A program made the translations under genes and the position numbers. A DNA stretch of 64,000 nucleotides from Qipengyuania marincola (GTDB lineage Bacteria > Pseudomonadota > Alphaproteobacteria > Sphingomonadales > Sphingomonadaceae): contig NZ_JARULC010000004.1 in assembly GCF_029688625.1 (NCBI RefSeq), positions 62,001 through 126,000 of the forward strand. The letters are read 5' to 3'. The notes under the pieces are model-generated. The model was given only the letters and a program-made list of their open reading frames with translations, did not search any database and was not told the DNA's origin. The stretch's first letter is position 1. Each line of letters begins with the position of its first letter. Shown here in pieces: positions 42,239-50,004 of the stretch.

Positions 42239-42949
42239 TCAAAGGCGCACGAGGTTCATTTTCAGCGCCTTGACCACTGCCCCGATCCGGGTGCTGGTAT
42301 CGAGCTTGTCATAAAGGCGCTTGGTGTAAGTCCTCACCGTGTCGGGCGACAGGTTGAGGATCGTACCGATGTCGCCGATCGACTTGCCACGCATGAGCCA
42401 TTCGAGCACTTCGGATTCGCGATCCGATAGTGACGGTTCCGCGTTGTTCCGAGCGAGTAACCGACTAACCCGTTTCTGCGCGGCCTGCGCAACAGCCCTG
42501 ATCTCGCGCGCCGCATCCACGTCCTCGGGCTCCATAACGCGGCCGAAATCATAACTTGCATAGGCCTCGCGTCCGCCAGCACCATAGAGCGGCACGCCGA
42601 AACCATGAACCAGGCCGTGTTCGCGCATCGCGCTGAAATAGGCTTCCTCCTCGGGTGTGTTCTCTTCCAGCGCGATGGCATCGAGCCAGCTCATTGCTTC
42701 GCCGTGACGAAGCGTGCGCGCCGGTATCGGGTCGTGACGGCGAAACTCGCAGTCCTGGTAGAGCGTCAGCCATTCGCCCGAAAATCCTTCGGCGTAAATC
42801 GTTGTGCTTTCCGATACCGGCGCATCGAGGACCGGTGTGAAATGGTAGCTCTGGCGCACCACCCCGCGCGAACGCGCGAAATCGCGGACGAAGATCAGCA
42901 GTTCGCCAACGTCGTCCAGCTTTTCGATTTGCTCCAATGCAGTCTTCAC
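42239..42949 (-). CDS. LuxR-type autoinducer-binding regulator (solo)
   Basis: 236 residues from GTG 42949 (GGGGAG upstream; a longer frame exists, with ATG 42988 as alternative). The N-terminal domain keeps the acyl-homoserine-lactone pocket residues: Trp60, Tyr64, Asp73-Pro74 and Trp88, with GLVHGFGVPLYG. The C-terminal GerE helix-turn-helix reads LSDRESEVLEWLMRGKSIGD and VRTYTKRLYDKLD. No luxI synthase is visible in the window, so it is a candidate solo receptor. Confidence 0.85.
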   Translation of the reverse strand: MKTALEQIEKLDDVGELLIFVRDFARSRGVVRQSYHFTPVLDAPVSESTTIYAEGFSGEWLTLYQDCEFRRHDPIPARTLRHGEAMSWLDAIALEENTPEEEAYFSAMREHGLVHGFGVPLYGAGGREAYASYDFGRVMEPEDVDAAREIRAVAQAAQKRVSRLLARNNAEPSLSDRESEVLEWLMRGKSIGDIGTILNLSPDTVRTYTKRLYDKLDTSTRIGAVVKALKMNLVRL

Positions 42950-43073
42950 GGCGCACTCTCCCCAGCGCAGGGAACGTCCCCCGACCATGCGACTTTCGGG
43001 AGGCCGACGGGCAAAATACATGCGCGCTCTGGATCGAGCAACACAGCCGATCGACAAGCGAAAGGCCGCCTCG

Positions 43074-43379
43074 GTGACAGATTTTAAGTCTCTTGCGTCC
43101 TCAACCCTCCGGCTGGCGCAAGGCAATGATGGTGATCGCACCGCTTGCGGTCTGGTGATCGATGCCCTGAGCGGTGCTTACGAGCATGGAAAGGTGCTAA
43201 CGATCTGGGAGTTGCGGACGATCACTGGTCTGCCATTGCATGAGGTTTTCGCCGCAATTCGCACGCTGGAATTTGGCGGCATCGTGTCGATCGAGCAGAA
43301 CCGCGAGGATCCGTTTGCGGCAACCGTGCACCCTGCCCGCCTGCCACAAGCTTCCGCGGAGGACGGTGGCGGACAATAG
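43074..43379 (+). CDS. Small winged-helix-like protein of unknown function
   Basis: 101 residues from GTG 43074 (GAAAGG eight bases upstream). The middle, VLTIWELRTITGLPLHEVFAAIRTLEFGGIV (parts: TIWELRTITGLPLHEVF), reads as a winged helix: recognition helix followed by a short wing (SIEQNREDPF). I do not recognise a family. It diverges from the LuxR gene with 124 bases between and may be its partner or target. Confidence 0.55.
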   Translation: MTDFKSLASSTLRLAQGNDGDRTACGLVIDALSGAYEHGKVLTIWELRTITGLPLHEVFAAIRTLEFGGIVSIEQNREDPFAATVHPARLPQASAEDGGGQ

Positions 43380-43477: not shown

Positions 43478-43553
<76 letters not shown>

Positions 43554-43604: not shown

Positions 43605-43653
43605 GCATCACATTTGATGTGCTGCAGGCCTTTCCTGTCACATTACGATGTGA
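43605..43653 (+). promoter_or_regulatory. Tandem inverted repeats upstream of HTH-ribBX
   Basis: Site 1: CACAT-TTG-ATGTG at 43609-43621, extended by outer GCA/TGC to 43605-43625 with one mismatch. Site 2: TCACAT-TACG-ATGTGA at 43638-43653. Half-sites are identical and the centres lie about 30 bases apart, three helical turns. Site 2 ends 12 bases before the start codon. The best candidate binder is the HTH domain of the gene that follows. Confidence 0.75.
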
Positions 43654-43665
43654 TACCGGCGGTGC

Positions 43666-44904
43666 ATGAACACGATTGAAAAGGTCCGCACCCTCGTATC
43701 GCAAGGCCTAATGACCCGCGCCGGGCTGGCCCGCGCTGCCGGGCTTCATGCCAATACGCTGAGGGACTGCACGGACGACAGCTGGAATCCCACGGCCGAG
43801 ACGCTGGCCAAGCTCGAAGGATTTCTCGAGGCGAATGACGAGACGCCCGTCATCGTCGGCGCGGAAGAGATCATCAACGAGGCGCGCAATGGCCGCATGT
43901 ATATTCTCGTTGATGACGAGGATCGCGAGAACGAAGGCGATCTGATCATCCCGGCGCAAATGGCGACGCCCGACGCGATAAACTTCATGGCGACGCATGG
44001 TCGCGGACTCATCTGCCTCGCGCTGGATCGCAAGCGGGTCGAGGCGCTGGGCCTCGAACCCATGAGCCGCGACAATCGCGAAAGCATGCAGACCGCCTTC
44101 ACCACTTCGATAGAGGCCAAGACGGGCGTCACGACAGGTATCAGCGCGGCCGACCGGGCGCGCACCGTTTCGGTTGCGATCGATGCCGGCAAGGGGCCGG
44201 ACGATATCGTGACGCCAGGCCACGTATTCCCGCTCGCCGCCCGTGATGGCGGCGTTCTGGTCCGCGCCGGACATACCGAAGCGGCAGTGGACATCTCCCG
44301 CCTTGCCGGGCTCAATCCCGCCGGTGTCATCTGCGAGATCATGAACGAGGACGGCACCATGGCGCGCCTCGATGATCTCGTCAGTTTTGCACGCAAGCAC
44401 GATATGAAGATCGGCACGATCCGGGACCTGATCGAATATCGCATGCGCAACGACCATCTTGTCGAACGCATCGCGGAGGACAAATTCGAATCCGACTATG
44501 GCGGCGCGTGGCGGATGATGACCTATCGCAACACCGTCGACGGCAGCGAATCCTACGTCCTCCAGAAGGGCGAGGTGAAGACGGGGGAACCCACCCTCGC
44601 CCGCGTTCATCCGATCTCGATTTTCGACGATGTGCTCGGTAAGCCGGGCGCGCGCAAGCGGACACTGCAGCGCGCGATGCAGGCAGTCGGCGAACACGGC
44701 TCCGGCGTCATTGTGATCATCACCGGCCGCCCGGCGACAGGCTACGGTGAGAGCGAGGCGGAACGCAATGTCGGCATCGGATCGCAAATTCTCGCCGATC
44801 TGGGCATCGAGGACATGATCCTGCTCAGCAATTCGCAGCCCAACGTTGTCGCGATCGAGGGCTACGGCCTCACCATCGTCGACCATCGTCCCATTCCGGA
44901 GTGA
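43666..44904 (+). CDS. ribB: HTH-RibBX: 3,4-dihydroxy-2-butanone 4-phosphate synthase with N-terminal HTH and degenerate RibA-like tail
   Basis: 412 residues. Residues 1-55 are an Xre-like HTH ([20 protein letters not shown]). Residues about 62-265 are DHBP synthase with [11 protein letters not shown] at 83-93 and HTEAAVD at 203-209, making the four-carbon riboflavin precursor from ribulose 5-phosphate. Residues 300-412 align with GTP cyclohydrolase II, but its zinc cysteines and the RQEGRGIG loop are missing, so that activity is unlikely; such RibBX fusions are known in proteobacteria. The HTH is the unusual part. ribH follows after a five-base gap. Confidence 0.92.
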
Positions 44905-44909
44905 CCCCC

Positions 44910-45329
44910 ATGGCCAAGTTCCTGATTGTCGAAGCGCGTTTCTACGACCACCTCAACGACATGCTTATCGCTGGCGCACGGGCTGCGTTGGAGCAAGCGG
45001 GTCATGATGTAGAGGTCCTGACGGTGCCGGGTGCACTCGAAATCCCGGGCGCGATCGCAATGGCGGCTGAAAGCGGGGGCTATGACGGTTTTGTCGCCAT
45101 CGGCGTGGTCATTCGCGGCGAGACCTATCATTTCGAAATCGTGGCTGGTGAAAGCGCTCGCGGCATCATGGCGCTGACCATGGATGGCATCGCGATCGGG
45201 AACGGGATCCTGACGGTCGAAAACGAGGAGCAGGCTCTGGTCCGCGCCGATTCCGCCCAGAAGAACAAGGGTGGCGAGGCAGCGATGGCTGCGCTTGCCT
45301 TGCTGGACCTGCACGACCGCTTCGGCTGA
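44910..45329 (+). CDS. ribH: 6,7-dimethyl-8-ribityllumazine synthase
   Basis: 139 residues. Condenses the RibB product with the pyrimidine intermediate, the penultimate riboflavin step. Family blocks: [37 protein letters not shown] with the catalytic His, and [17 protein letters not shown] 44910 with GGAG upstream is preferred to the GTG that overlaps the ribB stop. Operon partner of HTH-RibBX. Confidence 0.95.
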
Positions 45330-45333
45330 CCGA

Positions 45334-46164
45334 ATGGTCGAAATCGCCGCGCTCATGATGATCGCGAGCGGGGCAATCCACGCTGTGGTCAATGCCGTGC
45401 TCAAGTCCGGCGAGGACAAGCTGGCAAGCCGCGCGCTGATCGATCTCAGCGGCGGCCTGCTGGTCTTGCCTGCAATCTTCTTCGTTGCACCGCCCGACGG
45501 TGCATGGGGCTGGTTGTTTGGTTCCCTTCTGGTCCATGCCATCTACTTTCTCGCCTTGGTCAAGGCGTTCGAGGTGGCGGACATGAGCGCCGCCTATCCG
45601 GTCATGCGCGGCACCGCGCCTGTTTTTGCCGCCATGGGCGCAGTCGCGTTTCTCGGGGACGGCGTGACCGTGCCGGTCGCGCTGGGCATGGGACTTGTGA
45701 CCACCGGAATCTTCGTGAGCATCATCGGGCGCAATCTTACGCTCCCGGCCCTGTCGTACTCCCTGCTGACCGGGCTCGCCGTCGCCTGCTACACCGTGCT
45801 TGATGCAGGCGGGGTGCGCAATGCGCCGACACCTTTCAGCTATATCGCCTGGGCATTTTTCATTCTGGGTGCGGTGATCGGCGGCGTATTCGGCGCGTGG
45901 CGCGGGCGCGCCTTTGTCCACTATGCGAAAGCGAACTGGCGAAGTTGCGGTACAGCAGGGATGGCCGGAGTGGTCAGCTACGGCTTGGCAATGCTCGCCT
46001 TTTCCGTCGGTGACCTGCCGCGCCTCGCCCCGTTGCGCGAAAGCTCGATCCTCTTTGCCCTGGCAATCGCTATCCTGTTCCTAGGCGAGCGACCCGAGCG
46101 AATGAAAATTGTCGGCGGCGCGATCATTTTCGCAGGGGTCGTGATCCTGCTGCTGGCGCGCTAG
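45334..46164 (+). CDS. EamA/DMT family transporter
   Basis: 276 residues, ten predicted membrane segments in two EamA repeats. The pattern KAFEVADMSAAYPVMRGTAPVFAAM in the first half and RESSILFALAIAILFLGERP in the second is characteristic of drug/metabolite transporters (RhaT-like signature). It starts four bases after ribH and may move riboflavin, a precursor or an unrelated metabolite; the context is the only hint. Its TAG shares CTAG with the convergent gene. Confidence 0.82.
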   Translation: MVEIAALMMIASGAIHAVVNAVLKSGEDKLASRALIDLSGGLLVLPAIFFVAPPDGAWGWLFGSLLVHAIYFLALVKAFEVADMSAAYPVMRGTAPVFAAMGAVAFLGDGVTVPVALGMGLVTTGIFVSIIGRNLTLPALSYSLLTGLAVACYTVLDAGGVRNAPTPFSYIAWAFFILGAVIGGVFGAWRGRAFVHYAKANWRSCGTAGMAGVVSYGLAMLAFSVGDLPRLAPLRESSILFALAIAILFLGERPERMKIVGGAIIFAGVVILLLAR

Positions 46165-48301: not shown

Positions 48302-48379
48302 GCCCCTCTCCCACAAAGAGCAGTCCTGGAACGCTAGCTGCTACGAGGCGTCGTGACAATCAGCAGCGAAAGGTCAGCC

Positions 48380-50004
<1,625 letters not shown>

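Follow-up and report, generated by a model that had tools for sequence, protein, structure and literature searches.

In the proteobacterial RibBX proteins described for Shewanella, Aeromonas and Bradyrhizobium, RibB and a degenerate GTP cyclohydrolase II domain form one fusion protein, and the Aeromonas gene lies in an operon with ribD, ribE and ribH, according to the portion of that account used here (PMC10012899). The archaeal protein RbkR is presented, in the section of its source that we draw on, as a riboflavin-pathway enzyme with an N-terminal helix-turn-helix (HTH) that is annotated as both gene regulator and enzyme (PMC8305020). A looser parallel is found in Wolbachia, where an excerpted study has standalone Xre-type factors co-regulating riboflavin biosynthesis (PMC3518464). 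According to the relevant part of a review, the FMN riboswitch is missing from some riboflavin genes and other regulation likely exists (PMC6041382).

The window, the whole stretch of 64,000 nucleotides from Qipengyuania marincola analysed here, encodes a RibBX protein with an HTH head that very probably acts as an autorepressing riboflavin enzyme: the head is Cro-like and phage-related, and the same promoter-operator module stands before its own gene (Table 1). Given a phage-type HTH head and the same switch sequence before its own gene, the enzyme probably reduces its own production, and HTH, operator and position together make autorepression the likeliest function.

Table 1 Features of the HTH-ribBX locus in the window
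Feature	Position	Strand	Basis or remark
tRNA-Lys (CTT), directly upstream gene	43478..43553	+	Rfam match
Distal operator CACATTTGATGTG, CACAT-N3-ATGTG	43609-43621		pattern search
Inferred core promoter: TTTCCT, 17 bp with the proximal operator inside, TACCGG	43631..43659	+	inference
Proximal operator, longer palindrome TCACATTACGATGTGA, the exact conserved form	43638-43653		starts 28 bp before ATG
Proximal operator CACATTACGATGTG, CACAT-N4-ATGTG	43639-43652		pattern search
HTH-ribBX open reading frame (ORF)	43666-44904	+	412 residues; ATG at 43666
HTH domain, residues 1-56, Cro-like	43666..43833	+	recognition segment HANTLRD
DHBP synthase (RibB) domain, residues 67-258	43864..44439	+	profile matches
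RibX, degenerate GTP cyclohydrolase II part from residue 267	44464..44904	+	without C-x10-C-x-C zinc motif
ribH, lumazine synthase, likely co-transcribed	44910..45329	+	downstream in 74/97 HTH-ribBX loci
EamA-family transporter, close behind ribH	45334..46164	+	relative downstream in only 5/97 loci

The fusion of an HTH to DHBP synthase, proposed in an earlier note on this DNA, is borne out by the domain order, in which a degenerate GTP cyclohydrolase II part follows. HTH-RibBX has a complete DHBP synthase domain (PF00926, 281.7 bits; TIGR00506 over its cut-off), as expected of a RibB enzyme. The HTH of the window alone scores under the Pfam cut-offs; the HTH family profile, along its positions 4-52, matched solved structures of the Xre type (best E 4e-4), and a phage relative (L229) passes HTH_3.

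Both inverted repeats that the earlier note had placed before the gene are present (two CACAT/ATGTG matches upstream of ribBX compared with a shuffle mean of 0.09; 0 of 100 shuffles with two), and its spacing was accurate, with centres given as about 30 bases apart lying 30.5 bp apart and 12 bases between the end of TCACATTACGATGTGA and the ATG. The two were also said to match, which is true of the half-sites, these being identical, and not of the spacers, of 3 bp in site 1 and 4 bp in site 2; in all 96 loci with no more than two mismatches, the best match was the one with a 4-bp spacer (ties counted as 4). Across the genome the short pattern by itself is not rare, occurring in three places, two of them at ribBX, compared with two for the reversed control; what carries the weight is the occurrence of two copies before a single gene, together with conservation. 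Two full operators are not a general rule, being present in 17 of the 97 HTH-ribBX loci, while the distal site was the only full site in 15 and orthologues mostly retain only a half-site at the distal position. What is conserved in site 1 is the right half (TGTG), placed 20 bp upstream of where site 2 begins, and this position at −20 from the proximal operator is kept in phages and orthologues. We placed the core promoter by analogy with relatives that have TTG at that position; the −35 and −10 of the window are weak by consensus, and no sigma-70-like site was found at this promoter. Among the 81 loci with a proximal site, the −35-like TTG had its first T (−7) in 47, its second T (−6) in 61 and its G (−5) in 32.

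Conservation was assessed in a family sample of 119 genomes, 115 of which had a RibB match. An HTH-bearing RibB copy (HTH aligned from residue 7 or earlier) was present in 88 genomes, and 27 had HTH-less copies only; 87 of the family genomes and 10 named contigs gave 97 distinct HTH-bearing loci. Searched over the 120 bp upstream, these loci gave a best match to TCACAT-N4-ATGTGA with zero, one, two and three mismatches in 53, 29, 14 and 1 cases, the last being L141. An operator with at most two mismatches was thus found in 96/97 loci (shuffles 55/1940), and one with at most one mismatch in 82/97 (shuffles 7/1940); among HTH-less loci, searched over 320 bp, 1/104 reached two mismatches with other spacers allowed. 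Additional species from the genus of the window were also included, and all 12 carry the operator, 10 exactly and 2 with one mismatch. The earlier note had named absence of the repeats upstream of orthologues that keep the HTH as evidence against its reading; they are conserved there at the 96/97 just given, compared with 0/50 for the HTH-less copies in the tree comparison below. This presence in HTH-keeping orthologues and absence from HTH-less ones are strong comparative evidence, by which the predicted autorepression by the fused HTH is well supported.

The neighbouring genes were less uniformly kept. Only 6/97 loci had a recognisable tRNA 3′ end in the 300 bp upstream, and tRNA-Lys was rejected as a conserved part on that count. 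The earlier note had counted the EamA transporter in the operon; with a relative downstream in 5/97 loci compared with 74/97 for ribH, it was rejected as a conserved part as well. Farther upstream in the window lies the gene for a protein of the LuxR type (42239-43141, minus strand), which has both an autoinducer-binding and a GerE domain.

Mechanistically, two HTH heads held together by the RibB body, which we take to be homodimeric, would bind the proximal operator, and the distal site, about three helical turns upstream, may assist binding there. Bound HTH-RibBX would block RNA polymerase at the ribBX promoter, such that more enzyme would lead to less ribBX-ribH mRNA. Because the operator fills the gap between the −35-like TTG and the presumed −10, a bound repressor should exclude RNA polymerase. 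The sequences themselves show that the operator is conserved, that it co-occurs with the HTH, that its genomic location is near-exclusive and that its layout is common to phage operators; binding, repression, dimer geometry and capture from phage are what we infer from them.

The protein might also be a ligand-responsive sensor, in which RibX would bind flavin, GTP or a pathway intermediate and gate DNA binding, thereby replacing the FMN riboswitch; we consider this possible and somewhat doubtful. RibX is retained even though the C-x10-C-x-C zinc motif was found in 0/95 full-length HTH-RibBX proteins and the genome of the window encodes a separate RibA (L261) over the curated cut-off and with that motif, the X domain of Shewanella is reported, in the part of the source used here, to modulate RibB by an unknown mechanism (PMC10012899), and archaeal RbkR, as excerpted above, is a precedent for an enzyme-regulator fusion. 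There is also, as the earlier note stated, no FMN riboswitch upstream: RF00050 is absent from the window, and the aptamer was found in 0/119 family genomes under stricter filters that can lose weak matches (7/14 control genomes were positive), such that FMN riboswitch control of ribBX was rejected. However, HTH-less relatives also retain RibX, so RibX is not there for the HTH, and HTH-less sphingomonads likewise lack the riboswitch, so its replacement is not demonstrated.

The earlier note had missed that both the HTH and its operators have phage kin: on sequence grounds, the RibBX head is a relative of the Cro-like proteins that temperate phages encode. Three standalone HTH relatives in the family adjoin S24-type repressor ORFs, and two of these proteins also occur in IMG/VR contigs. 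Further phage relatives came from an HTH pattern search, the phage record of Pseudanabaena phage Pan3 and two protein scans. We tabulated 17 phage loci, omitting repeats of a contig or protein (L218, L220, L233, L235, L251, L252 and L256) and five more distant viral relatives that do not fit this layout cleanly (L221, L232, L234, L242 and L259); among the omitted repeats, the −29 operator is seen in L251 and L252. In 17/17 loci a repressor-like ORF in divergent orientation begins 30-84 bp upstream, and the divergent repressors tested matched Peptidase_S24 in 8/8 cases, 6/8 above the Pfam cut-off; that of Pan3 matches phrog_4, a transcriptional repressor. The Cro-like gene of Pan3 (ON968454.1; L214 4001-4189) is unannotated on its own strand, and the record has opposite-strand CDSs overlapping it.

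The operator starts 29 bp before the ATG in 16 of the 17 phage loci, with CACAT half-sites in 7 and GCATAT in 10 (one imperfect), and the proximal ribBX operator starts at −28 or −29 in 50/96 loci. TGTGA lies 20-21 bp before the proximal site in 43/96 ribBX loci, as in the CACAT-class phages, and the layout is common to phage and ribBX promoters: a half-site of the TGTGA type comes first, then TTG, then an operator within the spacer, with the ATG about 29 bp on. When the joint DNA pattern ATGTGAT-N7-TTG-N5-CACAT-N4-ATGTG was run over the viral collection, it matched 7 contigs (two near-identical pairs among them), all with an HTH ORF whose ATG lies 14 bp downstream; among the fetched loci it matched 7 distinct ribBX loci (L038, L041, L134, L139, L291, L305 and L323; L343 repeats L134). 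The pattern is doubled in 5/7 viral contigs within the stretch available, and these (L231, L235, L240, L360 and L361) hold two full promoter-operator copies, which in four contigs are separated by about 750 bp, as though the repressor gene lay between them. A rule by which CACAT operators go with R or Q as recognition residue, and GCATAT operators with L, Y or N, holds for the 17 phage loci (7 + 10) and fails for the near-identical L360 and L361, which have Y with a CACAT operator; it is therefore not claimed.

The HTH was also sought beyond the family. In an evenly drawn class sample, 12/385 genomes matched the HTH profile at E 1e-5; all four strong long-frame matches were in the sphingomonad family, two other families had standalone relatives, and the remaining matches resemble ordinary Xre proteins. 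In the order sample, 105/196 genomes matched, 102 of them within the sphingomonad family. Standalone relatives in other families (L269 in G392, L310 in G509) have CGCAT-N4-ATGCG-like operators in a similar layout, and an ORF carrying a second HTH lies in divergent orientation to L310. In two genomes from a different family of the order, the HTH found in RibBX is joined to CoaBC (L308, G527:C1:1171500-1175500; L309, G571:C294:1500-5500), with DFP and Flavoprotein domains in both and no CACAT palindrome seen in the 110 bp before either gene; these fusions suggest more than one recruitment of a phage-type HTH.

A single clade of HTH-bearing RibBX cores was rejected (AU p 1e-7), so losses or transfers occurred, and a single clade of their HTH heads was not (AU p 0.665). 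We give even weight for and against a scenario in which the family ancestor captured a temperate-phage cro with its promoter-operator and fused it to ribBX, leaving a central vitamin gene under a domesticated phage switch rather than a riboswitch for FMN, with the enzyme dimer supplying repressor dimerisation and with possible cross-talk between flavin synthesis and phages, resident or incoming, of the same operator class. That phages instead took HTH and operator from host ribBX seems unlikely to us. In the HTH tree, which was rooted at its midpoint and has no inferred root, the main phage clade falls nested beside the ribBX heads, as this reverse transfer would have it; but the standalone relatives are more diverse (CACAT, GCATAT and CGCAT operators) and occur in other families of class and order, whereas the ribBX heads have one specificity only and a single clade of them is not rejected. 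Since 63 columns leave the root unfixed, transfer from phage to host is the more economical reading and not a result.

We also located the operator genome-wide. The exact 16-mer occurs 50 times in 48/119 genomes (reversed control 0), and 46/50 sites lie within 150 bp upstream of HTH-ribBX. The other four are in a prophage of G017, as a tandem pair of an exact and a near copy on a stretch also found in an IMG/VR contig; before the terminase large subunit gene in G101; in G104, within a long ORF; and in G103 (L359 1930-1945), before the gene for a small membrane protein and about 1.5 kb downstream of ribBX. Prophage sequence holds two of these four. A protein similar to that small membrane protein is encoded in the window (48353-48637; weak PF04973 match, below cut-off). 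With the longer consensus, the sole site within two mismatches in the own genome is that of ribBX, and three mismatches gave two others compared with one in the control. A wider regulon was rejected on these counts (own genome at ribBX only; 4/50 exact sites elsewhere in the family), as was a CRP-type site, the CRP consensus having the opposite half-site order to CACAT...ATGTG.

The family's prophages encode repressors whose operators have the CACAT half-site too, and a separate host or prophage regulator could bind the ribBX operator, leaving the RibBX HTH with another role or none. This is improbable given how closely the site follows the fused HTH. In a tree comparison of 137 rows under one common 320-bp rule (87 with the HTH; 50 without, comprising 35 family copies and 15 from outside the family), TCACAT-N4-ATGTGA with at most two mismatches was present in 86/87 HTH-bearing and 0/50 HTH-less rows, and with at most one mismatch in 73/87 and 0/50. 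The HTH label changes 13 times on the RibBX tree, at least 6 of them on well-supported branches. For 6 supported independent pairs, almost all random pairings had the site with at most two mismatches change along with the HTH (median sign p 0.031, values up to 0.0625), and at one mismatch it tracked the HTH in 5.4/6 on average, a weaker result (median p 0.0625). Further, 99 of the 102 family genomes with an HTH-profile match had a single match at E 1e-5, and the recognition segment H-x-N-[TS]-L-R, including the recognition Arg, is retained in 97/97 HTH-RibBX proteins. The proposal of the earlier note that the HTH makes RibBX an enzyme-repressor of ribBX-ribH-EamA agrees with the operator tracking the HTH, except that EamA is not supported as a conserved part. 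Finally, inverted repeats near a start codon might work as hairpins in leader RNA, which is extremely improbable here because the outer bases are nearly fixed and do not covary (ACA and TG invariant, the next T in 96/96 aligned), the site lies within the presumed promoter spacer and occurs in phages too, and the tRNA was the sole Rfam match.

Our literature search, with most subscription journals outside its scope, found no title or abstract on an HTH-RibB fusion or phage-derived control of ribB. HTH-RibBX offers a concrete, testable answer to how sphingomonads control flavin synthesis without an FMN riboswitch, for 88/119 sampled genomes. If true, this would clearly exemplify how a core metabolic enzyme can recruit a phage regulatory module, protein and operator together, and phage counterparts of the ribBX module are still extant for direct comparison.

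In the protein of the window, as in other proteobacterial RibBX, a degenerate GTP cyclohydrolase II domain is joined to RibB, but the portion of the proteobacterial account used here mentions neither an HTH head nor operators (PMC10012899), both present at this locus. The HTH-less RibBX copies in our analysis are also without the operator. RbkR differs in its enzyme (riboflavin kinase), domain of life and HTH, and we know of no phage kinship for it. PutA, BirA and NadR unite enzyme and repressor in one protein, with known coupling to ligand or substrate; their folds are unrelated to that of HTH-RibBX. Phage Cro and its operators, with lambda as the point of comparison, are also similar: the HTH is probably of the small Cro/C1 type, and the phage relatives have a divergent S24-type repressor and operators just before their own gene. 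The standalone relatives are, as expected of Cro, small repressors divergent from an S24/CI repressor, whereas HTH-RibBX has no divergent S24/CI repressor upstream in the window, where tRNA-Lys lies instead, and its HTH is fused to an enzyme of about 350 residues with no repressor gene adjoining. HTH-RibBX is a relative of Cro, not a Cro.
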